Both the position numbers and the translations under genes were made by a program. Shown in pieces: positions 4,468-64,000 of a stretch of 64,000 bases of DNA. How positions within the stretch are numbered: position 1 is the first letter of the stretch; each line of letters starts with the position of its first letter. Location: assembly GCF_000002985.6 (NCBI RefSeq), contig NC_003283.11:19345501-19409500 (forward strand), read 5' to 3'. The notes beneath the pieces were generated by a model, which did no database searches, was not told where the DNA came from, and saw only the letters and a program-made list of their open reading frames with translations. Origin of the DNA: Caenorhabditis elegans. Lineage: Eukaryota > Nematoda > Chromadorea > Rhabditida > Rhabditidae.

Positions 4468-5483
4468 TTGACCCCAGCTGGGGTTCGAACCCTTGACCTT
4501 CTGACTGGAGTTTTCGGAAAATCCCACTGCGCCACTTGGCCCAAACATGCTAAATTTCAGATTTTCGAGTTTTCGATCATAATTTTGTGAGCTAACAGGA
4601 GAACAAAAATGTTTTACCCTAGCTGGGGTTCGAACCCGTGGCCTTCTGAGTGGAGTTCACGGGAAATCCCACTGCGCCATTCGGACATTTTCTTGAAAAA
4701 TGGTTGGATTTTGAGTTTTTGAGTTAATTTTTAGAATATGAAAGAATGTTAGAGGGAATATTAAACTTTGAAATCTAGAATTCGGAAAATATTTTCTAAA
4801 AACCTCGAAAAAAAACTAGAAAATCCCAAACTTTTTGTAAATAAATATTGCGAAATTCCCGATTTACCCGAAAAACCCTATGAATAAATGTTCCAACTTC
4901 TATATATTTCTTTCAAATTCGATATCGGAAAGATAACGATCTAGCAGGTGTGTGTAGAAGTGTCTCTGATGAGAATTACGCTAATTTTTTGCGGAAAGAA
5001 ACTTGGCCTTCAGCGGGAATTAAAAGCGGTAGGGAAATGACGATAATTTTATGTGAATAGAATACAAAAAAATTTAAAAAATCGGGAAAAAGATCAATTT
5101 CAAACGAAAAATAACAGATAGAAATTAAAAATAAAGAAATTTTGGGAAAAAACAGTTATTATAAAAATGAGATTTTCCCAAAAATTACATAATTTTTCCT
5201 ACACAACAATAGCTAATAAATGCAAAAAACAGTAAACAAAAAATTTTGACCCAAGTGGGGGTCGAACCCGTGACCTTCTGCTCAGAGTTCATGGAAAATT
5301 CCACTGCGCCATTTGTGCAAATTTTAAAATTTGGGGGAATTATAGATTTTTGAGGTTACTATTGAGTTTTAACTACAATTTCCTGGTAAAACATAGAAAA
5401 CAAAAAAATTTAGCCACGGCGGGGATCGAACCCGTTGTCTTCTGCGTGGAGTTTATGGAAAATCCCACTGCGCCATTCGGGCA
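4468..5483 (-). repeat. Four tRNA-like elements, minus orientation
   Basis: Copies are at about 4468-4543, 4614-4687, 5247-5319 and 5411-5483. Read on the minus strand each has the A box TGGCGCAGTGG (weaker in some), the phrase GGGATTTTC, a B box of the GGTTCGAACCC type and a T-run beyond its 3' end. They belong to the same family as those at 7.0-7.7, 13-14.6 and 24.2-24.7 kb. Stem pairing is too poor for functional tRNAs. Confidence 0.75.
4860..5060. other. Unique island
   Basis: Mixed-composition sequence with no tandem repeat, including a CAGGTG E-box near 4945 and GATAAC near 4932. No reading frame is convincing. It may be regulatory or relic coding DNA. Confidence 0.25.
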
Positions 5484-35480: not shown

Positions 35481-35767
35481 AGAAAAGAGCTCAATTTTGT
35501 GTGTTGTACATAATAAAATATTTGATTTTTCTCAGAATTTTGAAAAAAATTTTTTTTTTTTTAAATCCCTCCTTTTTATTTTTTCTGCAAAAGCAACTTT
35601 TTTCAACGTCAAAAGGTGTTTGGTGTCACTTTTGGCACCCAAATTTAATATACTTTACTCTCTAAAAGTAATTGGTTCTTGGAGACAATTGCATCAAATT
35701 TTGTAGCCTTATAGCCTACTTTTTGGTGTTTTTCTTGTTTTTAAAGGTATTAAAAATAGCAAAAAAC

Positions 35768-38700
35768 ATGAACTTGGAAGAATATTTTATAGAAGTTAAG
35801 CCTCAAGAATTTCAGCAATTTTTAAGAAATTTGCTTCAAAATTCTCAAAACTGGGCGGTTTTTTGCTCAAATTTGCAGATTTTTATGAGTTTTTTCGGCG
35901 TTTTTTTCAACATTTTGCATATTTTCATACTTTTGAACAAATCTATGAGACGTCAGGCAACTAATGTATTGATTATTGGAATTGCTATCAGTGATATTTT
36001 TTATTTATTTTATTATGTCGAAGGAGGGACCAGAGAATTTTTGGAGAATGGAATTCCGGGAAAATGGTTAGTTTTTTGGTGTATTTTTGGAAGAAAGTTT
36101 GTAAAAAAATATAAAAAACCTGTAAGTTGTTTTTAAAAAATATTGGAAATTTGTTTTCCAACTTAAAAAATTTCAAAATGTTTTTTTTCAAAAATTGTTT
36201 TTTTCCAAATTTTTTTTACTCTAGAATTTTTAAAACTAGGAATTTACAGTTTATAATGCAAAAATCTGAACCTACGCCCCAAATTTCATAGTTTTGACAC
36301 CCATAATGACATGTTTTGGAAAGGTTGTCAGTAAGCTCGAAATTGGCCTAAATCGGCCCGAAACTGACCTGGATCCAGAAACATTTGGGCATAGACGATT
36401 TTAATGTTAAAAAAATTTGATTAGGTTTTCAACTACCACATTAGCTAGTTTTGGACAAAAATTAAAAAATTTGGGCCTGAAAACGGCCTAAATCGGCCTG
36501 AAACTGGCCTGACAAATAGAAATCCGAGAAAATGCAATAAAAATGTTTTAATGTTTTAATTTTTATAAAATTCATTTGAAATCCATCGTTCCATGAAATT
36601 TTACACATCAAAATTTAACATAAAAATTATTAAGCCTGGAAATGGCCTAAATCGGCCCGAAACTTGCCTGGCACATAGATTTTTGTGAAAAATGCAATAA
36701 AAATGTTGGCAGCTTCAAATTTGAACACAATTCAGTAATGTTGCCCTATATTGGAAATCAAAAGAAGTTTTGGGCCTGAAAACGGCCTAAATCGGCCCGA
36801 AACCGGCCTGGAACTAAAACTTTTAGAATAGGCAATATTGGTGTAAAAAAATTTGAATTAGTTATGCGTTTAAAAAAAACTCGACACCGATTTCGCCATA
36901 TTTTCGGACAAGTTTCCGTTTTAGGCCTGATCTGGGCCTAAATGAGTCCACAATGCGATTTTTTCTAATATAGGCAATATGGGGGTCAAAACTGCGAAAT
37001 TTGATATGAGGATTTCAAGTTTTCAACTTACAACGCTTAAATTCTGCAACCAACAAAAAAAATTATTTTCAGCCGGCCCAAAAAGACAGAATTTCTGGCC
37101 TATTACATCTGGATTGTAACAATTTTCAAGGACGTTTTTCGTCGAGTTTCCGCATTTTCAGGCGTTTCACTGGCTCTAATTCGGTACCTGGTAATGAAAT
37201 ACGGGGCCCGTACCAACATCCGGGTCTATGTAACTACTTCAACCAGCTGGGCACTATTTTTCAGTACAATTTTGTTCAGTTTAGTGATATCATCGATAAA
37301 TCATGTGAGGTATATTGTGATGAGATATCCAGACTGGGTGCCGCCTGAGAGGTTTGTTGGACTATTTTTCAGGCCGATATAGGCCACGTTTGGGCCTGAA
37401 ATAAAATTCTCCAAAAGTTAGCCGATTTGGGAATACGGTGCCCGTGTTATGATTTAACGTTTATGCAAAGTATGTCTCTAATTGAAAAATTCCAATTTCA
37501 GGCCTGTTTCAGGCCGATCTAGGCCATTTTCGGGCTAGAAAACAAATTATCCAAAAATGAGCAAAAATTTAGGTCAAAGTTACATTTTGTCTAAAATGTA
37601 ATTTTTCTAGGCTTATTTCAAGCCGATTTAGACAAATTTTGGACCCATAGCCGACTTTTCAAAAAATGAGCCAAAATAAGAGTTAAATTTGAATTTTTGC
37701 CTAAGGTTTGTCTAAATTTGTACAATTTAAATTCTAGGCCAGTTTCAGGTCGATATGAGCTTTATCAGGCCGACATAGGCCTATCTCCGGCCTATTCAGG
37801 TCTATTTCAAGCCAAAATAGAAATATTTTTGGGCCACTGTAGGCCAATTTCAAACCAACATAGGTCTGAATCAAGCTGATTTAGGCCCATTTTAGACTTT
37901 TCAAGGAGAATTTCAAGCCGAAATAAGCCTGATTCAGGCCAATCTAGGCCTATTTCAAGCCCATTTTCCAATTTTCCAATAAAATCCCAAATTTTCAGCT
38001 GCAAAATGTACCCTCCAAACACCACACTTCCCTGGTTTGAGCAAGTTCAAAACCCGGATCTCGGCGATTTTCAACGACAAATTTCCACTAAATTTCTGTA
38101 CATTGACGGAGTTTTTAAGATAATTCCCCCGATTTTATACCCATTTCTAGCTTTTGGGCTTCTTTGGGAGCTGAAAAAAGCTCGGGACAGCCGGAAAATT
38201 TTGATGAGAAAGGGGGAAGAGCACGAGATGGTACACGTGACAAAATTGGTGATTTTTATGACAATTGGCTATTTTTTGGCTGAAACTCCCGTTGGTATTT
38301 CATATTTTTATTTGGCATACAATATGGGAGAAGATTTTGGGATTATGTGAGTTTTTCATAGTTTTTCATGTAAATTGTTTTGAAAATTTGATTGTCACTG
38401 ATTCCGGACCAAAACAGGCCCGACACAAGGTTAGAAACAAATTTTCCTTGTTTGGCCCAAACTTGCCTGAACTCGGCCTGAAAGCGGCCTAAAACCGGCC
38501 TAAACCCGGCTTAAAACGGCCCAAAAAACAAAAATTTTGCTGAATTTGTTAGAAATTGATTAGAAACTTAATTCTTGTACTGGTAAATTTTTATGCTTTC
38601 ACATTAACTCTATTGGCCAAAATGGGCCTACAACGGCTTAAAACTGGCCTGAAACGGTCTGAAACGGCTTGAATTTGATGAATATGCCTCGAATTGCTCG

Positions 38701-50978: not shown

Positions 50979-51192
50979 AACCATCTGAATTACTACTCAT
51001 CAAGCTGGATAGTGAACGGAATCAGAATTATTAATCCATCAGGAGCATGCATGAAACATCCTATGTGGGGATAATAACCAATTTTCATAATAAAGTTGTT
51101 AGTTTTGTGTAAACACTTGGAAAATTTCAGACTCAGCTGATGAGCACTTTCAGACCAAAAAAATTATTGGTTTTCACATTGAAAAAAAATTA

Positions 51193-51562
51193 TTGGCCAC
51201 GCTTGGGGTTCGAACCCCAGACCTACTGAGCCATAGCCGCCCCTCTACCCAGCTGAACCACCAGCGCATTTTTTTATGTTGCGGTTTAGCAATATGGGGG
51301 TCAAATCGGAACAGAATTTTTTGCTGAATCCAAAAATTCATGTCAAATTGTACGGGTAGTAACGCTATTGTGTATAGACTAATTTTCAATTGATAATGAC
51401 TGAAAAATTATGAAACCTGTCAGGGCTCAGCTGTTTTAATTTGTTAATTCAATGTTTTTCGGCTCACTGACATTCAATAAAAATTATTAGCCACAGCAGG
51501 GAGTCGAACCCCTGACCTCCTGAGCCATAGCCGTCCCTCTACCCAGCTGAGCCACCGGTGCA
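51193..51562 (-). repeat. Two tRNA-like elements, minus orientation
   Basis: Copies at about 51193-51268 and 51489-51562, 296 bp apart, each followed (on the plus strand) by GTTTAGCAATATGGGGGTCAAATC, so the flank is duplicated. On the minus strand they read GTGGCTCAGCTGGGTAGAG ... GGTTCGAACCCC (first) or GGTTCGACTCCC (second). Same type as 48-kb copies. Confidence 0.8.
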
Positions 51563-51954
51563 TTTTTTTTTTCAAAATTTTCGGTTTAGCAATATGGGGG
51601 TCAAATCTGTTCAGAATTTTACGCTGATTTCAAATATTTTATTAGTTTCAGACAAAATTTATTCCGAAAACAGAAATTCGAAATTAAAAAAATTCTATCA
51701 CGAGGGGCTCAAAATTCTCAACGTGTGAACATTAATCTCAATACTCCTTTTCTTACACCGAATAATTCTCCAAAAAACCAGTCGATACTCCGACGACAAG
51801 AAAAAACAGAATATACAGTGAATTGACGAGTTTAAAATCAAAAATGTGAAGGTTATTATGGCAGTGTAGTCGATGAGCAGCCTGAAAAACACATTTTTAG
51901 CTGCAAAATCAAATTCTACATAAAATTCCCGAAGTTTTGACACCCATATTGCCA

Positions 51955-53158: not shown

Positions 53159-54494
53159 TATTATTTTTTCTTGTTGTAACATCATTGTTAAACTTATTTC
53201 TGTGTGAAAATGTTCACTGACTCACCACTCATAAGGCACCCCGGCTTGTAAAAAGTCCCGTGTACCCCCATCAAAATAGAAAATTAGGAACAAAAAATCA
53301 CTAATAGCAATTCCAATCAACAGTACATTTACAGATTGATATCTCAGTTTCTTATTGCATAATATGATAAAATGTAAAATATTTAGAAAAACTCCGAAAT
53401 AACTTATGAAAATCTGCAATTTTGCTGCGAAAATTGCACAAACTTCCGCTGTTTTAATGATATTTTTAGAGAAATTCGACATATGCAACAAAAATTTGAA
53501 AAAAAAACTGAGATATGAGTAAAAACCTAAAAAAAATTAATAGCCACCTTCCAAAAATATATTGAAGAAATTTGCGAAGTAGGGTGCAAATCAGTGATGC
53601 GTGGCATTTTCCCAGAAAATTAGTGGTTTTAGTTTTTAAACTTATTTTTCTAAATTGCAGACGCTTGACAATTGAAATTTCATTGGAATTTGTAAAAAAA
53701 TTGAGGAAAATAAATTGAAACTCTTTAACTGGTTAGCATTTTCGTAGACTAAAAGCTTGAACTTTCGCTCAAAAACAGTATAAAATTTTTGCACACGATC
53801 CCCCATTTTCTCAATTATTTACTTGATTGCTATATGAAGCGTTGCTTAATGTACATAGGTTGATTATGAAATTATGATTTGAGAGAATTGATTGAGTTTT
53901 TCCAACTGCCCAACATAGGTGTTGAATTCCTTCGCACATTTTTAATGGGTAATAAAATGCAATCGCATGGCACACATAGAAAACATTGCCTATCGAAATG
54001 ACATCAACGGAGGAAGTGTGTAAAAAATGAGGAAATGATAACCGTCGGAATTTTCGAAATGTTGCGCAACAGTCGAGAAAACAAAGTTGAACCGTTTGTC
54101 GTAACACTCGGACCAGTGGCTGACCCCACCTTTTTACTTGAGCTAAATTTATAAAGAACCACTTCGGGGCAAAAGTCGCACAAAATCCTCACACATGGTC
54201 CCCCATTTTTTTGGTGTAAGATACCTGTCCAAACTGTCACATGACGCATACTTAAATTAGAACTAAAAATTGTGAGAAATTCCTGCACACGAGCACCCAT
54301 CTTTCATAATGTTTTAGTCCTTTACCAATTGTCACATAACACATTGGTAAATTTGAATAATTTCGGTTTTTGAAATTACTACTTCAAAAAGTATGAATGG
54401 ATTTTTAATGACCACACACCACAATGAACTTGGAAATGTTTCTTGCTCGCAAAGTTTAATCTGAAAAAAAAGAGAAAGTGTCCATAAAAATCAA

Positions 54495-54620
54495 TAATGC
54501 AAGCGGGGGCGCCCCACTGCAAACGCGAGATTCTCTAAAATTTGCTCCTCGCAATTTTTTTTTGGAAATAATACATTTATCATATATTGCCTAAACAATT
54601 ATTTATTGAATAGAATTGTT
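54495..54620 (-). pseudogene. Decayed 3' half of a coiled-coil family gene (unit A)
   Basis: Matches the exon 1 end, intron and short exon 2 of the intact copies (GCTCCTCGCAATTTTTTTTT against GTTCTTCGCAGATTTTTTTG), but the donor region reads TGATAAAT, so GT is gone. No full frame remains. Confidence 0.6.
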
Positions 54621-54878: not shown

Positions 54879-55212
54879 TCATGGAGAGGAAACGGTGGCC
54901 AATGCTGAAATTTGTTCTTCGCAGATTTTTTTGGTAATAATAAAACTTACTATCCTCAGCATTTTTCAAAAATATTTCAAACTCAGATTTTTTACGTTGA
55001 AGAGTCGCAAGGGTTGCCGCACTATAATTCACCACGGCTTTATTTTTAGCGCTTTCTTTCGGGGTAAGGGTCGGTCTGGAGCAATGTTCTTGCATACCCA
55101 TGATCAATGCAATTTCTTCTTCGAGCTTTTCGAGCCAATCTCTTGCTTCTCCCAAATCGGCGAAACGACTCTCTTTGTTGTTAAATTCGAATGTCAGCAT
55201 TGCAGATCTCAT
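54879..55212 (-). CDS. Small coiled-coil protein A, 95 residues
   Basis: Exon 1 is 54951-55212 and exon 2 is 54879-54904, separated by a 46-nt intron (GTAAGTTTTATTATTACC...AAATTTCAG) in phase 1; 288 nt close on TGA. A TTTTTTTAG acceptor just before the first ATG points to trans-splicing; a second in-frame Met lies four codons in. The protein looks like an alpha-helical hairpin: helix 1 EARDWLEKLEEEIALIMGMQ, a linker CSRPTLTPKESAKNK, helix 2 TLATLQRKKSEFEIFLKNAE, and a short tail TLATVSSP. Hydrophobic residues in heptad spacing suggest a coiled coil. No signal peptide or membrane segment. Tandem paralogues are at 57119-57449 and 59499-59811. I do not recognise the family. TATATATACATATAGTATA about 150 bp upstream may act as promoter. 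Confidence 0.72.
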
Positions 55213-55359
55213 TCTAAAAAAACCGAATTTTCTGCACAAATAATACAAATTTTGAAAAAGCCACCGCGAAACTAATGAAAATTAAAGAAACAAATGGAAA
55301 AAAAAGCAAAACGAAATGATATGTACATTGAATCTAACAAAATATTTCTTAAATTGTAT

Positions 55360-55510
55360 ATATACATATAGTATATTTGCCATGGTTAGCTCCGCCCCTC
55401 ACCGCACACCGTTATTTAGTATCAGTCTCTTCGATGCGTGCCCTACCGTAACTTGCCCGGTGCTGCGTGATTGTCCCGAGGGAGGCAGATGGCAGTTGGT
55501 TGGCTAGGTC
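55360..55510 (-). promoter_or_regulatory. Duplicated promoter-like block of unit A
   Basis: An alternating TATATA tract (55358-55377) followed by CCATGGTTAGCTCCGCCCC and a GC-richer 100 bp. A similar block lies upstream of gene B (57890-58030) and a truncated one upstream of gene C (59940-59985). Conservation next to each gene supports a regulatory role. Confidence 0.45.
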
Positions 55511-55639
55511 AAAGGTTTGCTTTCGGTTTATCTGAAACTTGCCTGAAAATATGCAGAAAATCTGAAAGTTGTCTGAAACCCCCAATTTTTCCCAAAATGA
55601 TGAATGTTTTAAGAGAATCTGCAAATTAATACTGTATTT

Positions 55640-55870
55640 ATCAGAAAGTAGGCGAACACCAATGGTTGATCATTTTACGTAAATTTTCAAAGCTTGTATC
55701 ACAAACATTTTCTGATAACCTTCTTTCCAGTTTTTCAAAATCCACCTTTGGAACAATAGCAAGTTAAAAAGGAGTTCATCAATCTCTGAGCCTCAAAAAT
55801 ATCCTTCTACTAGTACTGTACTCCATACCCGTAAATGTCTCTTAAAACTTGGAATTGTGTGGAAAAAATA
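55640..55870 (-). pseudogene. srw receptor fragment (unit B)
   Basis: Aligns with the clearer fragment at 58140-58390 over its whole length (TTGTATCACAAACATT, CATTGGAACAATAGCAA against CCTTTGGAACAATAGCAA). Reading frames are broken. It derives from the end of TM3 to TM4 of an srw receptor. Confidence 0.6.
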
Positions 55871-56574
55871 GTCTGAGAAAAAACAAATTCTGATCTATTT
55901 TTTTATTGTTTAAATTTCTCTTCTGCTGGTTGGCTTTTTTGTAGACAAAAAGCCTGAAGATATGCCAAAAAACAGTATAAAATCTTTGCACACGATCCTC
56001 CATTTCTTCATTTTCACTTATTTTCTACATGACGTATTGTTCTAGTGATTATGAAATTATTATTTGAGAGCATTTAATGAGTTTTTTATTGTCCAACAAA
56101 GGAAAAGTTGTTGATTTTCTTCGCACATGTTTTAATAGGTAATAAAATGTAATCGCATGGCACACATAGAAAACATTTCTTATTGAAATGAAATCAACTG
56201 AGAAAGTGTGTATGAAATGAGGAAATGATAACTATCGGAATTGTCGAAATGTTGCGCAACCGTCGAGAAAACAAAGTTGAACCGTTTGTCGTAACACTCG
56301 GACCAGTGACTGACCCCACCTTTTTATTTAAGCTAAATTTATAAAGAACCACTTCGGGGCAAAAGTCGCACAAAATCCTTTCACATGGTCCCACATTTTT
56401 TGATGTAAAAGACCATAACACATTGGTAAATTTAAAAAATTTCGGTTTGTGAAATTACTACTTCACAAAATATGAATGGATTTTTAACGACCACACACCA
56501 CAATGAACCCCAAAATGTTCTTGCTCACAAAGTTCAATCTGAAAAAAGAGAGAAAGTGTCCATAAAAATCAATA

Positions 56575-56700
56575 ATGCAAGCGGGGGCGCCCCACTGCAA
56601 ACGCGAGATTCTCGAGAATTTGTTTTTCGCAATTTTTTTGGTAATAACACAACTTATCATCTTCTGCTATTGCCAAAATCTTTAATAATCATTTATTGAA
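56575..56700 (-). pseudogene. Decayed 3' half of a coiled-coil family gene (unit B)
   Basis: Contains the exon 1 end (GGCAATAGCAGAAGATGA), the intron start as ATAAGTTGTGTTATTACC and the TTCTCGAGAATCTCG exon-2-side sequence. The donor G of GTAAG is mutated, so splicing as in the intact copies is not possible. Confidence 0.6.
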
Positions 56701-56744
56701 AAGGATTGTTTTTAAACATCAATTAGTCGCATTTCGCAAGAGTC

Positions 56745-57050
56745 AAAAATTAAAGAATTAGAAAACTTTGAGAATTAGAAAACTTTGAGAATTAGAAAAC
56801 TTTGAGAATTAGAAAACTTTGAGAATTAGAAAAACTTAAGAATTAAAAAAAAGTAAGAATTAGAAAAATTCTGGAATTAGAAAAATTGAAGAATTAGAAA
56901 AATCGAAGAATTAGAAAAATGAAAGAATTAAAACAATTTTGGAATTAGAAAAATTTTAGAATTAGAAACATTTCGGAATTAGAAAAATTAAGAATTAGAA
57001 ATATTCAAGAGTTATACAAGTTTAAGAATTTAAAAAATTTAGGAATCAGA
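56745..57050 (+). repeat. GAATTAGAAAACTTTGA tandem repeat
   Basis: About seventeen units of 17-18 bp (GAATTAGAAAACTTTGA), the first four perfect and the rest diverging. It lies downstream of gene B and is not present in units A or C except for one or two diverged units. Confidence 0.9.
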
Positions 57051-57118
57051 AAAGAATTATAAAATGATCTTCATAAGGTTTTTAAGTTGTTAAGAGTCAC
57101 GTTTTGACGGCAGGTTGT

Positions 57119-57449
57119 TCATGGAGAGCGAGCGGCGGCCAAATCTGGAATTAGTTATTCGCAGATTTATTTGGTAATAATAAAACTTACCATATTCTAC
57201 GAGTGCCACAATTCTTTCAAGTTTAGATTTTTCACGCTGAAGAGCCGCAGTACTTGACGCGTAACTGTTCACCGTAGCTTCATTAAAACTGCTTTCTGCC
57301 GTGGTACGGGCCGGTCTGGAGCAACTTGCTTGCGAAAGCATGCTGAAAGAAATTTCATCTTCAAGCTCTTCGATTCGCATCCTAATCCAATCTCTTGCTG
57401 CTTCCAAATTGGCAAAATTACGAACCATGCCGTCTGGTGTGAGTTTCAT
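57119..57449 (-). CDS. Small coiled-coil protein B, 94 residues
   Basis: Exon 1 is 57191-57449, exon 2 is 57119-57144, again with a 46-nt phase-1 intron; 285 nt close on TGA. The acceptor TTTTCAG lies 6 nt before the ATG. It keeps the hairpin plan: helix 1 LEAARDWIRMRIEELEDEIS, linker ASCSRPARTTAESSFNEATV, helix 2 STAALQREKSKLERIVALVE, tail DLAAARSP. It is the most diverged member, with two extra turns in helix 1, yet the CSRP motif, the intron position and the short last exon are conserved, which supports a maintained gene. Function unknown. Confidence 0.7.
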
Positions 57450-58139
57450 TATTTTCTGAAAAAAAAACCGAATTATCTGCACAAATGACAAAATTTTAAG
57501 AAAAGTCACGGTTAAGCTAATCACAATTGAAAAATTGGAAAAATGGTGATTGATGCAAGTTTTGGAAAAAACATTTAAATTTAATTTTGTTTATTTCTAT
57601 TTTAAATCAAAACTTCAACTTTTTAGGGGTTTCCGGAACTGATTGAACATGAAAATGGTGTCGGAATTTATGTATTTTCTTACAGCGAAAATTCAACTTC
57701 CCAGGCGTTTCTAGAACTGAGCTTACTTGGAAAAAAATAATTCTAAAGTTTCAAAGGCATTCAAAAAATAACAATGTCACCTCAGAAATAGAAAAGAAAA
57801 TAGGAATGTTGGGTAAAAAACGAAGAAATAAACAAAAAGATTAAATAAAAGTACCTTAAAGTGGTATACTGAATGTAATGAAATATATCTTGTATGCATG
57901 TATGTATATACAATGCTCCGCCCCCAACCGTTACTTGTTATCAGTCCCTTCAATGTATGCCGTAACTTACCCGCCCCGGCACGCCCGCTGCACTGTAAGT
58001 GTCAGGGAGGCAAGGTAGTTGGTCGGCAAGGTAAAAGGGTACCACCGCTTCCGGTTTGTCTGAAAATATGAAGAGATCGGAAAATTCACTGAAATTGCAC
58101 ATTTTTTCCCAATATGATAAAATTATTCAAAGAATATAA

Positions 58140-58395
58140 AAAGCAATACTGTATTCCTCTGAAAGTAGGCGGACACCAATGATTGCTGGTTCTACGTAAA
58201 TCTTCAAAACTTGTATCACAAACATTATGTGGTAAACTACTTTCCAACTTTCTAAAATCCAGCATTGGAACAATAGCAAATTATAAAAGAGTGAAGGAAT
58301 CAATTTAATAATCAAGTTCCAGCAACCTCTTGGACTCAGAAACGTTTTCCTACTGTTACTGTACTTCATAACCGTAAATATCGCTTCAAACTTAA
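58140..58395 (-). pseudogene. srw receptor fragment (unit C)
   Basis: The minus-strand frame VMKYSNSRKTFLSPRGCW aligns with LVMKYGTIRKTFLSLIDCW of the 51.7-kb pseudogene (end of TM3 and second intracellular loop) and continues into a hydrophobic TM4-like stretch. A stop follows SEEYSIAFYIL, which may echo the TM7 SSEYRLVFW motif after an internal deletion. Only a fragment is present. Confidence 0.65.
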
Positions 58396-59179
58396 GGAAA
58401 TTGAATTGAAAGAATAGGCTGAAAACATTCTGATCTACGTTTTCTTAGTTTAAATTTCTCTTCTGATAGTTAGCCTTTATGTAGACAAAAAACCTTACCA
58501 TATCAAAAAACTGTATTAAATCTTTGCACACGATCCTCCATTTTTTCATTTTTACTTATTTTCTACATGACGCGTTGCTTAATATACATAGGTTTATTAT
58601 GAAATTATTATTGGAGAGAGTTATAAGAGTTTCTTAAATTGACCAACGTAGTATTGTTGAATTCTTTCGCACATATTTTAATGGGTAATAAAATGCAATC
58701 GCATGGCACACATTGGAAACATTGCCTATTAGAATGACATCAACGGAGGAAGTGTGTAAAAAATGAGGAAATGATAACCGTCGGAATTTTCGAAAAGTTA
58801 AAGTTGTGCAACAGTCGAGAAAACAAAGTTGAACCGTTGGTCGTTACACTCGGACCAGCGACTGCTCACACCTTTTTACTTAAGTTAAATTTATAAAGAA
58901 CCACGTCGGGGGAAAAGTCGCACAAAATCCTTACACATGGTCCCACATTTTTATGGTGTAAAAGACCTGTTCGAACTGCAACATGACGCGTACTCAAATT
59001 AGAACCAAAAAAAATTACTGCAAACACATTGGTAAATTGAAATAATTTCGGTTTTTGAAATTACTACTTCAAAAAGTATGAATGGGTTTTGAACACACAC
59101 CATAATGAACCCTAAAATTTTCTTGCTCACAAAGTTCTGAAAAATCTGAAAAAAAAGAGAAAGTGTCCATAAAAATCAA

Positions 59180-59300
59180 TAATGCAAGCGGGGAACAAGA
59201 GATTCTTCAAAATTTGATCCTCGCAATTTTTTTTGGTTATAATAAAACTTATCATCCTCTGTTATTGCCAAAAATCCTTGAAAAACATTTATTGAATTGA
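59180..59300 (-). pseudogene. Decayed 3' half of a coiled-coil family gene (unit C)
   Basis: The frame FQGFLAITEDDKFYYNQKKL parallels the unspliced exon-intron border of the intact copies (FLKNAEDSKFYYYQKNL). The donor GT has become AT (GAGGATGATAAG), so the intron cannot be removed. A relic that shows each unit once held two gene copies. Confidence 0.65.
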
Positions 59301-59498
59301 CATCAATTAGGCGCATCCCGCAGGAGACTTGCCTAAAGGAAGAAAAGTAAATAAAATGAGAAAGGTTAAACGATGTAAGTACCGGATGATCTAGATTCCA
59401 AAAAGTCATTGCAACAAAAATTTAAAAGTAACATAAGTTGAGATATCAAGAGAAAAGTTTAAGAGTTGTTAAGAGTACACATTTCGACGGCAGATTGT

Positions 59499-59811
59499 TT
59501 ATGAAGAGAGAACGGTGGCCAAAGCTGAAATTTGTTCTTCGCAGATTTTTTCGGTAATAATAAAACTTACTTTCCTCTGCATTTTTCAAAAATGTTTCCA
59601 CCCTAGATTTTCTACGTTGAAGAGTCGCAAGGTTTGCCGCACAATAGTTCACCACGTCTTCATTTGCAGCGCGTTCTTCCGGGGTAAGGGTCGGTCTGGA
59701 GTAATGTTCTTGCATACCCATGATCAATGCAATTTCTTCTTCGAGCTTTTCGAGCAAACCTCTTGAAAAGGCAAAATCAAGATCTATGTCGTCAAAAATG
59801 AATGTCAGCAT
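59499..59811 (-). CDS. Small coiled-coil protein C, 88 residues
   Basis: Exon 1 is 59571-59811, exon 2 is 59499-59524, intron 46 nt, phase 1; 267 nt close on TAA. TTTTCAG lies 13 nt before the ATG. Helix 1 LLEKLEEEIALIMGMQEHYS and helix 2 LATLQRRKSRVETFLKNAEE are nearly the same as in A, and the tail is TLATVLSS. The N terminus is short and acidic (MLTFIFDDIDLDFAFSRG). Cys of the CSRP motif is Tyr here. Substitutions against A are spread through the frame without stops, which fits two maintained genes rather than decay. Confidence 0.7.
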
Positions 59812-60364
59812 TGCAGTTTTCTTTCTGAAAAGACGAATCATCTGCACAAATAATACAAATTTTTAAAAACGCCACCGGGAAACTAATGAAGGTTAAAGGA
59901 AAAAAAATGACACATTGAATCTAATAAAATATCTCTTAAATTATATATATAGTATACATATATACCATGGTTAGCTCCGCGAATTCCATCGAATTCCATT
60001 TTGAGTTACCGCCCAAAATGGTCAAGAATCCGATGGAGCGCGTTTGAGAAAATTATGCGATCGATCTTTCGATAATAACTGTTTCCTTTTTCGTTACTAC
60101 AAATTGTGGACATGTATCATTTCAAACAAATTTTGAGAGGAAAGAAGAAAGAATGAGTGAGAAATAGTGAAAGAGACACCCTCTAGTGCTGTAACGCTAA
60201 GTGCTGATAACGTGATTGAGAGACAAGTGTGTAACAACTATACAAAAACTATTCTGCAATTCTCGTCTCAATTCTGTATTTCTTACCAACGTCTGCAACG
60301 ATGATGTTGGGTGTTAGTTCCTCAACTTTTTTTCCGCAAATCATACACAATTCCATACTTTCAG

Positions 60365-60893
60365 CATGAGCATGAGCAGATCGTTTACGACTTTGATGTA
60401 CTCTTGACGAAAGCAAAAAAAATGTCGGAACAGGATCCTCCCGATATAGTGATTTTCTCCAACCTCATTTGGGGCGCAGCTGTTGTATGCTTGAGAAAGT
60501 TCTTTCTCGACAGATTAAAACTCGAGATTTCGGGCCAAAATGCACAAGAAATACTCATGGAAATTGTTGTCGACTCTTTTACAGACGACACTGGTGGACA
60601 TCTACACAGAGCCTGGACATTTGCAAATCAGTAAGACAAGATTTTTTTCCACATTATTCCTGTAATACTCAGAATTCAGTTGTCGTAAAAGTGCATATAC
60701 TCTGGGATATATAAATCAACTGCTAAGAAATGAAATTCTACAATCGGTGGCGAACATGGAGGCGTACATGAATGCAGCCGACAGTGAAAAAATTAAAGAG
60801 AAAATATCAACTTCTGGATTACAAATAACATATTCTAAAAATATTGTGAAAATTGGGAATTATCAATTTTCATTCAATAAAGTAGCGCATTGA
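60365..60893 (+). pseudogene. Inverted partial copy of the 62.2-64 kb gene (two C-terminal exons)
   Basis: Exon-like segments are 60365-60630 and 60680-60893, joined by a 49-nt intron using the AATTCAG acceptor, and they close on TGA. They match the last two exons of the minus-strand gene at 62239-62781. The preceding exons are not found upstream. An in-frame ATG at 60422 (MSEQDPPD) would give a 140-residue protein, so a short functional derivative is possible. The first exon is almost identical to its counterpart, the second is strongly diverged (CRKSAYTLGYINQLLRNEIL against CRKKAYAMSHSNLLLRNYIL). No recognised domain in this part. Called pseudogene because the N-terminal two thirds are absent. 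Confidence 0.6.
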
Positions 60894-60931: not shown

Positions 60932-61540
60932 TACCGTATTTCCTCTATTAGTCTTGCAGCCTCTATTAGTTTTGCATGCAAGACTAATAGGGTTATTCAA
61001 GTAGTGTGAAATTAAAAAGTGTATTTCAATACACATTTTGCCTTATTCAAGTAACTTCAAAAACATGTATTTCAATACAGTTTGTGACGTAATTTCGCGA
61101 CATTTCTCGACATTATGCGACAACCAGAAAGCGGACAATTGAATGAAAACCACAGAGAAAGGCTTTCCCGCAGGGTGAAAATCCACACAATTTTCCGTCG
61201 CAGGAGAATAATTCTGATAAAACCACTGTGGAAAAATGTCGAGAAATGTCGCGAAATTACGTCACAAACTGTATTGAAATACATGTTTTTGAAGTTACTT
61301 GAATAAGGGAAAAAGTGTATTGAAATACACTTTTTAATTTTACGACACTACTTGAATAACTCCATAATAGAGGGAATACGGTAATAGTCTTGCGCCCGTA
61401 TTCTTGCCAGACCAGCAGTATTTTGTGAAAACTTCAAATATTTTGTCATTTTTTAACTAAATTATATTGTAAAGTGTTCAAATAATTGATAAAACAATAG
61501 AAAAGTATTATTTTGCTCGATTTTTAGAGGAAATACGGTA
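60932..61540. mobile_element. MITE with TACCGTATTTCCTCTA TIRs, carrying a nested foldback
   Basis: TACCGTATTTCCTCTA at 60932-60947 has its exact reverse complement at 61525-61540. TA at both ends fits a TA target site. It contains CTATTAGTCTTGC phrases related to the element at 640-1112 and an internal copy of the end (AGAGGGAATACGGTA, to 61383). The nested foldback interrupts it at 60992-61360. Confidence 0.8.
60992..61360. mobile_element. Nested palindromic foldback element
   Basis: GTTATTCAAGTAGTGT and its complement form the ends; further inverted pairs (AAAAAGTGTATTTCAATACA, CATGTATTTCAATACAG, GTGACGTAATTTCGCGACAT) make arms of about 130 bp around an 80-bp centre. It disrupts the outer MITE, so it is younger. 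Short frames in it are symmetric artefacts. Confidence 0.85.
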
Positions 61541-62238: not shown

Positions 62239-64000
62239 TCAACACGTTACTTTGTTGTACAAAAATTTATCTTTCCCGATTGTCACAAAATAATTTTTTG
62301 ACAACTTCAATATTTGTAAATCAGAAGCTTCCAACTGTTTCCAAATTTTTTCGATGTCGGCTTTATTGATGCATTCTTCCATGCTCTTCACCGATTCTAG
62401 AATGTAATTTCTCAGCAGCAGGTTTGAATGGCTCATAGCGTATGCTTTCTTGCGACAACTGAATTTTTAGTGTATCAGGAATCATGGAAACAATAAATTG
62501 TCTTACAGTTTTGCAAATGTCCAGGCTCTGAGTAGACGTCCACCAGTGTCGTCTGTAAAAGAGTCGACAACAATTTCCATGAGTATTTCTTGTGCATTTT
62601 GGCCCGAAATCTCGAGTTTTAATCTGTCGAGAAAGAACTTTCTCAAGCATACAACAGCTGCGCCCCAAATGAGGTAGGAGAAAATCACTATATCGGGAGG
62701 ATCCTGTTCCGACATTTTTTTTGCTTTCGTCAAGAGTACATCAAAGTCGTAGATGATATACGAAGGTGTATACGTAGGTAGCTGAAAGTATGGTTTTTTT
62801 AATACTTTTTGAAGGCACTTGTTTATGCTGGAAATGTGTAACCATTAAAAATGAAGTGCACCCATGATAAAAAGTAATTGACGACTTTGGAAGTCGTCAA
62901 TTTATAGAAAAAAAGTCTTCCAGTCTTATGTTCTAATTATGTTTAAAACTATCAGCTACCACAGGATTGGTTTTCAATAATTTCCCCACAGACGGAACTA
63001 TTTTAAAATCAAGATTGAATCTAATTTTTGAGAAAAATTGGTGAACATTTTGTAAAAACAACTTGACAAGTATTTGAGATTACCAATTTTCTACATAACT
63101 ATGACCCAACTCACAGTAACTCACAATCAGACTCATTTTCACACTTACTTACCAAGTCCTGCAATAACTTCTTTTCGATAAGTACATTGCGAATTAAATC
63201 AATATGAGCATTCTCGGTCAAGTCAATCGATTTTTTCCACCTATCAACAATATCATCCATCTCATCTCGTGTGATGAAAAATGAATCGTGTTTACACGCA
63301 GTATGATTCCAGTTTACATCAACCCATAAACGAATTATCAAAGCGGCTGCTGATCCATCAAGACCAAGACACATCATCTCATACATTTCCTCTAAACTCT
63401 CATCTTCTTTGAGCCAAATTTCGAAATTTTTATAAAAGAACTCTTTGGTGTAACTGACAATTGATTCCCACATATCATTGGAAAATTGACAACAATCATT
63501 AGCTTTTGATGCTTTTATTGCACTAGTCATGAGGGTAAAATAATATTTTGCTGCAAACAGTTTTTTAATTTAAAAAAAATACTAGAGGAATTGATCTTCT
63601 GTTTATTTTTAAAAAAAGCTTACTAGTACTTAACAAGTGCAATTTTTGCTCAATGTTATTCACGACTACATCTTCTCCAATTTTGTCATTGTTCCCCTTC
63701 AAGAAATGAGCTGAGAAACGGTGTGTGTTTTCTTCAGTCAGACACCAACGGTGCATCACGGATAGTTGAAGAAGTTTTTGATAATGCTGGTTGCATTTTG
63801 CATTGGCAAGAGAAAATCCATAGAAAATAATTCGTTCCCATTGAATGTACTTTTTATAACTTTTTTCAAACCTGTCATAGGTAGTAATAACGACTACATG
63901 ACTATTATTTGACTTTTTGGTTTCATTTCCATAGTAGTTGATTGCAAGATAATCTTCTTTCAAAAGACTTTCAAGAAGTTCCTTCCAAGGTTTTATTACA
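62239..64000 (-). CDS. Degenerate SNF2-like protein, C-terminal 422 residues visible
   Basis: Exons, 5' to 3': from beyond 64000 to 63624, 63153-63550, 62507-62781, 62239-62458; all junctions are GT-AG and the frame holds to TGA. The first visible exon has the order of motifs of the SNF2/Rad5-HLTF ATPase lobe: KPWKELLESLL, INYYGN, VVVITTYDRF, WERIIFYGFSLANAK and HRWCLTEEN. In active members these would be a WxxE segment, YHG, VVxTTY, the Walker B DEGH and LTGTP; here DEGH reads YGFS and LTGTP reads LTEEN. ATP hydrolysis is therefore unlikely. The rest (133, 91 and 73 residues) is helical and charged, with no second helicase lobe or RING recognised. It may be a nuclear scaffold or an adapted pseudoenzyme; a decaying gene is the alternative. 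The family call rests on five short motifs. Confidence 0.65.

Follow-up and report, generated by a model that had tools for sequence, protein, structure and literature searches.

Short, locally duplicated two-exon genes on chromosome V of Caenorhabditis elegans: a candidate protein family with dN/dS above 1

Gene Anatomy at the Locus

The window analyzed here, a stretch of 64,000 nucleotides (nt) of C. elegans chromosome V (V:19345501-19409500), carries three short genes, A, B, and C, which together with a further copy (D) are best read, from their sequence, as an intact, locally duplicated two-exon protein-coding family with one probable distant copy (E). A, B, and C all lie on the minus strand, and in each the reading frame closes once a 46-nt GT-AG intron in phase 1 is removed, giving products of 91, 94, and 88 amino acids, respectively. 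These three genes had been proposed in a preliminary description of this DNA, and all of their coordinates agree with our own. The same description took the 46-nt phase-1 intron to be constant and the final exon to measure 26 nt. The first holds in A, B, and C and fails as a rule for the family (47 nt in D, 44 nt in E); the second is correct for the coding part of the final exon in A, B, and C and not for the exon as a whole, with AATAAA standing ~205-420 nt past the stop. The features of the three genes, all on the minus strand, are as follows.

54951..55200, minus strand, coding exon 1 of gene A from the conserved ATG, open in frame, phase 1 at the donor
54905..54950, minus strand, 46-nt intron of gene A (GT...AG), less diverged than the exon
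54879..54904, minus strand, coding part of exon 2 of gene A, stop TGA
57191..57449, minus strand, coding exon 1 of gene B, with a 12-nt in-frame insertion relative to A, C, and D
57145..57190, minus strand, 46-nt intron of gene B
57119..57144, minus strand, coding part of exon 2 of gene B, stop TGA
59571..59811, minus strand, coding exon 1 of gene C, with a 9-nt in-frame deletion
59525..59570, minus strand, 46-nt intron of gene C
59499..59524, minus strand, coding part of exon 2 of gene C, stop TAA
55232..55240, minus strand, TTTGTGCAG just 5′ of A, candidate trans-splice acceptor
57477..57485, minus strand, candidate trans-splice acceptor 5′ of B, the same element as 5′ of A by alignment
59842..59850, minus strand, candidate trans-splice acceptor 5′ of C, the same element as 5′ of A by alignment
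54602..54607, minus strand, AATAAA 3′ of A, candidate poly(A) signal ~270 nt past the stop
56692..56697, minus strand, AATAAA 3′ of B, ~420 nt past the stop
59288..59293, minus strand, AATAAA 3′ of C, ~205 nt past the stop

An in-frame ATG further 5′ in gene A would lengthen its exon 1 to 55212. Within the proposed trans-splice acceptor, TTGTGCAG is retained in the alignment of copies A-D, and we take this upstream element to resemble the C. elegans acceptor consensus. AATAAA is present also in the stretch around D. A tandem repeat array with a 17-base-pair unit (56711-57100) lies 3′ of gene B, between its stop and its AATAAA.

Evidence for Coding Capacity and Splicing

The coding frame of exon 1 is free of stops in all four copies (A-D), and the other two minus-strand frames contain 2-9 stops. 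Of the insertions and deletions, the two within the coding sequence measure 12 nt in B and 9 nt in C, both multiples of three; those found pairwise upstream are 1, 2, 4, 5, 8, 13, 15, 18, and 20 nt long, mostly not multiples of three, and immediately beyond the stop lengths of 1 and 3 nt occur. The GT-AG splice sites are retained in all four copies and in E. These observations bear on a rival explanation, that the copies are functionless duplicates still open by chance, in which the excess of amino-acid changes would reflect a chance shortage of synonymous changes combined with multi-nucleotide mutation. We take this rival seriously and consider it on balance somewhat unlikely. The in-phase lengths of the coding indels, the retained splice sites, and the open frame of the divergent copy E speak against it, and the decayed fragments that adjoin each copy speak in its favor. 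A neutral simulation with substitutions alone (5000 runs) left all four frames open in 1.6% of runs under the larger distances and in 5.8-6.4% under the smaller ones, a result that we count both for coding genes and for survival of the frames by chance.

A separate question is whether the 46-nt stretch might be coding and not an intron at all. In A, B, and C, unspliced translation would continue uninterrupted for 33-41 residues, and divergence is lower in this stretch than in the exon. The unspliced frame of D stops after 17 residues, and although the intron of D is 1 nt longer, its spliced C-terminus still aligns with those of the other copies, which argues that the stretch is removed. At this codon, and in this phase, copy E carries a GT-AG stretch of 44 nt, and donor and acceptor match what we take to be the C. 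elegans consensus. We regard a coding role for the stretch as very improbable.

Two further candidates were set aside. A gene on the plus strand of the same stretch was dropped, as three of the four copies carry a stop in the in-register frame of that strand; the dN/dS (the ratio of non-synonymous to synonymous substitution rates) of 0.51 in this frame mirrors the third-position deficit of the coding frame. The other candidate was a known non-coding RNA, and nothing in the window matched Rfam at the gathering score.

Copies D and E and the History of Duplication

A DNA search of the genome with the region of A located a full copy, D, at V:19432737, with a 47-nt intron. Reading the open frames around D yielded E (chrV 19434389-19434634, plus strand; positions 4889-5131 of the neighboring stretch L010), on the opposite strand and 1.3 kb upstream of the start of D. 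Both sit ~30 kb from A-C, outside the window, so that the family first described as having three members keeps these three and gains D as a further full copy and E as a probable one. Genome-wide protein searches with B and D as queries had A-D among the matches listed, plus one match at an E-value of 0.63 for B; with E as the query, only E itself was among the matches listed, and all such match counts are lower bounds. A profile built from A-D was run over the 304 kb around the locus, where it ranked E fifth of 7577 open reading frames (ORFs), with an E-value of 0.0073 and the N-terminal 29 positions matched. Because the next ORF in this ranking has an E-value of 0.054, the profile score of E alone is modest. 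The intron of E (44 nt, GT-AG) falls at the aligned codon and in the same phase as in A-D, and profile match and intron position together make E a probable distant fifth member of a family that otherwise has four close ones. Since the profile search spanned 304 kb, more distant members elsewhere in the genome are possible.

Units of ~2.2-2.6 kb stand in tandem, and a portion of this array, flanks included, is found again near D. The present copies are the product of duplications, both of tandem units and of a larger block. The intron and exon lengths that they have in common were inherited through this segmental duplication and, because whole units are tandem duplicates, the equal size and phase of the introns are not independent evidence. 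Judging from the similarity of the paralogues, the family appears to be young. A non-coding block of 272 nt (53940-54211 in unit A, 56130-56401 in unit B) is 93% identical between the two units, better kept than the coding exons, and has no Rfam match; the D locus shares 95% identity with 53720-54158, which overlaps this block.

Each of the four units also contains one decayed fragment, no longer than ~75 nt, that spans the end of exon 1 and the intron. Those in the window are listed here.

54541..54590, minus strand, decayed fragment in unit A (exon-1 end and intron, with the donor GT replaced by AT), approximate limits
56615..56691, minus strand, decayed fragment in unit B
59210..59283, minus strand, decayed fragment in unit C

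The loss of the donor GT from decayed copies, as first described, is borne out, with AT in its place in all four fragments. These are short pieces that share one change, which is most simply a single inherited event. The contrast between intact and decayed copies had been offered as evidence of selection; it carries little weight, because the decayed fragments share this one donor change.

Predicted Fold and Family Matches

The products of the family are 83-94 residues long and would be soluble proteins; inspection by eye showed neither a signal peptide nor a membrane segment. AlphaFold2, given the four copies, predicted an N-terminal β-hairpin packed on an antiparallel pair of helices, the best model reaching a predicted local distance difference test (pLDDT) score of 94.5. 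The helix-linker-helix or coiled-coil hairpin plan of the preliminary description is thus upheld for the two helices and had missed the predicted β-hairpin. Its CSRP-type linker is predicted to join the helices, reads YSRP in C, and is not present in E. Along helix 2, variability recurs with a period of 100 degrees (p = 0.003); along helix 1 no such period is seen (p = 0.098). Folded alone, E gave a poor model (pLDDT 47) in which the hairpin and the beginning of the helix reappear in the first 24 residues only, with low confidence.

No Pfam-A family matched A-E above its curated cut-off. The closest for A, B, and C was DUF2852 (17.5 bits against a cut-off of 22.5) and for D HJURP_C (14.2 against 22.7); E had none. 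The A-D profile found nothing significant by sequence among PDB chains (best E-value 0.27), NCBIfam and PHROGs gave weak matches only, and Foldseek with the predicted fold returned no significant match. The earlier remark that no described family with these features was known agrees with these results, and A-E may be taken as a protein family outside those recognised. A viral or phage origin was considered and rejected, with no significant fold or profile match. Literature searches made without a gene name returned nothing directly on the A-E family, and we do not claim its absence from print.

Rates of Change Between Copies

By counting, dN/dS exceeds 1 in all six pairs of A-D (A-B 1.52, A-C 1.98, A-D 1.83, B-C 1.87, B-D 1.79, C-D 7.39), where the six pairs derive from only four related sequences and the counts behind the C-D ratio are 1.5 synonymous and 36.5 non-synonymous changes. 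Over the protein as a whole there is no sign of purifying selection: a ratio well below 1 had been expected, and all six values contradict it. Ratios above 1 point to diversifying selection, with a lack of constraint as the less likely alternative. Estimated jointly for A-D by maximum likelihood, a single ratio (omega) is 2.91 (likelihood-ratio statistic 14.4, p = 1.5e-4), and remains at 2.68 with F1x4 codon frequencies and 2.89 with equal ones; none of 300 simulations at omega = 1 reached the observed joint value. Omega is 3.54 when B is left out (A, C, and D; p = 0.0036) and 2.70 when the first 26 codon columns are removed (p = 0.0016), and a model with a class of sites above 1 is preferred over one without it (twice the log-likelihood difference 18.7). 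By segment, with all four copies, codon columns 1-26 (p = 0.028) and exon-1 columns 27-87 (p = 0.016) each gave a significant result.

The distribution of changes among codon positions agrees with these estimates. Changes at positions 1, 2, and 3 stand at 49:46:23 in A-D and 25:22:9 in A, C, and D, and shuffles of phase that preserve clusters of neighboring changes gave P ≤ 0.0001 and about 0.001, respectively, and 0.0004-0.032 for single pairs. That this third-position deficit survives cluster-keeping shuffles counts against functionless duplicates, since drift does not predict such a deficit. When codons with a single difference are taken, the excess is kept in B-C (p = 0.017), B-D (p = 0.038), and C-D (p = 0.002). 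Exon 1 is more different than the intron at p < 0.05 in four of the six pairs. In the pairs with B, coding divergence (0.342-0.415) is about double that of aligned non-coding DNA (0.169-0.188), a yardstick of 102-134 sites whose ends were set by the aligner. The intron and its immediate flanks, pooled, diverge by 0.045-0.234, one third to one half of dN; this pool lies near dS in A-C, B-C, and B-D, below it in A-B and A-D, and above it in C-D. The exon was compared with the pool in three pairs and exceeded it with p = 0.014 (A-D), 0.095 (A-C), and 0.0009 (A-B). Taken together, the rates suggest that the family is probably under diversifying selection.

Several results weigh against that conclusion. 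Among A, C, and D, coding divergence is close to that of wider aligned non-coding DNA (0.162 and 0.148 for A-C, 0.122 and 0.143 for A-D, 0.158 and 0.133 for C-D), dN is 0.95-1.5 times this wider yardstick, and dS is well below it. Synonymous changes are few in these pairs (5 in A-C, 4 in A-D, and 1.5 in C-D) and, because dS lies below the yardstick, the ratio in A, C, and D owes much to this scarcity; their amino-acid sites change at about the background rate and their silent sites less, on few counts. Divergence in the 5′ flank, out to ~190 nt, is similar to that in exon 1, and greater in the pairs with B (0.51-0.53). The intron and immediate flanks are the slowest non-coding part and gave a stronger contrast when used as the yardstick. 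Single-difference codons show no excess in A-B, A-C, and A-D; the codon positions of A-B, A-C, and B-C do not differ significantly by a plain chi-square (0.05-0.20); neither helix 1 with the linker (p = 0.084) nor helix 2 (p = 0.13) is significant alone; and the divergence of exon 1 does not significantly exceed that of the intron in A-D and C-D. All of these rates come from four related sequences under models without gene conversion. On the structural side, the remaining four AlphaFold2 models score 80-82. The background-like coding rate of A, C, and D, the lack of an excess at single-difference codons in the pairs with A, and a dN/dS that is never below 1 are what functionless duplicates would also give.

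The same rates can be asked of another explanation, in which these are real but weakly constrained genes handled by the ERGO-1/ERI-6/7 pathway of 26G small interfering RNAs (siRNAs), with relaxed constraint setting the rates. A homologous group with few introns fits the class described for this pathway in the available text of one report (PMC3213143), and in A, C, and D a dN close to the divergence of wider non-coding DNA would be compatible with it. The available text of another report gives Y43F8B.9 as an rrf-3 siRNA target (PMC3592204); this clone series reaches near the locus, and the gene could not be tied to it. Relaxation predicts dN/dS near 1, not about 2.9, and we hold this explanation to be quite improbable.

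Interpretation

We tentatively favor, at a confidence that falls just short of an even chance, a reading of these loci as locally duplicated two-exon genes whose scaffold has been kept and in which amino-acid change has been either tolerated or driven. Since the duplications, amino acids would have changed, with retention of the frame, the splice sites, the linker, and one side of helix 2. If the genes are expressed, the most likely mechanism would be a scaffold bearing a variable surface that binds a fast-changing partner, so that copies would become different binders; candidates for this partner include a protein from a pathogen, a selfish element, and a competing paralogue. A more specific proposal, which we think unlikely, is that the genes form a compact, quickly made repertoire of small binders, an undescribed nematode family with a β-hairpin and two helices that is one side of an arms race. 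Gene-wide diversifying selection would then tune each tandem copy to another target, which could be a protein of an intracellular pathogen or a selfish or toxic partner. Should the change be adaptive, the driving partner could be sought by ordinary means and an arms race would be directly testable; should it not be, the loci would offer a clear case of short duplicated genes between function and decay.

Neighboring Sequences

Beside the family lies a gene cluster, at 60042-60850 and 62344-64000 in the window, in stretch L008, and at 7036-9715 of L010. Two ORFs of L008 match the SNF2-related domain in Pfam, and a related ORF (L010 9266-9715) has at least eight genome matches including itself, all at 19.408-19.466 Mb. 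The window arms 60380-60648 and 62489-62757 form an inverted pair with 96% identity. Between them, 61006-61343 is an inverted repeat with 117-nt arms that are 95% complementary and 104 nt apart, and looks like a small palindromic element. Elsewhere, 51176-51275 and 51470-51569 are 85% identical and one of them has a transfer RNA-like GGTTCGAACC core; no transfer RNA was reported at either position by ARAGORN (bacterial code) or by Rfam. An exon of a Srw-type chemoreceptor lies at 35672-36136 (Pfam E-value 3.8e-17), and an esterase-like ORF in the window would fit Y43F8A.3. One paper places Y43F8B.17 at V:19485465, and A-E could not be tied to named genes.

Comparison with Known Systems

Generic antiparallel helical hairpins, such as Shrub/CHMP4B, Cep57, and the arm of seryl-tRNA synthetase, are among the closest known systems. 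Toxin-antidote elements offer another comparison. The sept-1/zina-1 element maps to the right arm of chromosome V, as do A-E; in the available text of its description, the antidote aligns to the N2 pseudogene B0250.4 and has zinc fingers, and the toxin has a SEP domain (PMC13411925). Unlike that element, A-E have no zinc-finger or SEP match in Pfam, and are known from sequence alone.

The targets of the ERI-6/7-ERGO-1 siRNAs comprise groups of related genes that are poorly conserved and have few introns, as far as the available text states (PMC3213143). A-D are likewise homologous tandem duplicates with one intron in the coding part, although the target class is defined by siRNAs whereas A-E are compared with it by anatomy alone.

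The F-box families of Caenorhabditis are tandem duplicates, as A-C are. In the available part of one study, F-box genes are clustered on chromosomes II, III, and V, with part of the protein evolving faster, and among 95 C. elegans and 37 C. briggsae pairs whole-gene dN/dS was below 1 in all but one (PMC8665587). F-box itself was absent from our Pfam scans at E-values up to 10 for A-D and up to 1 for E. The six pairs of A-D differ from those families in their ratios, with the reservation that methods may differ between the studies. Beside the published F-box pairs, a whole-protein dN/dS above 1 in every pair is unusual, and it is found here in an animal amenable to genetics.

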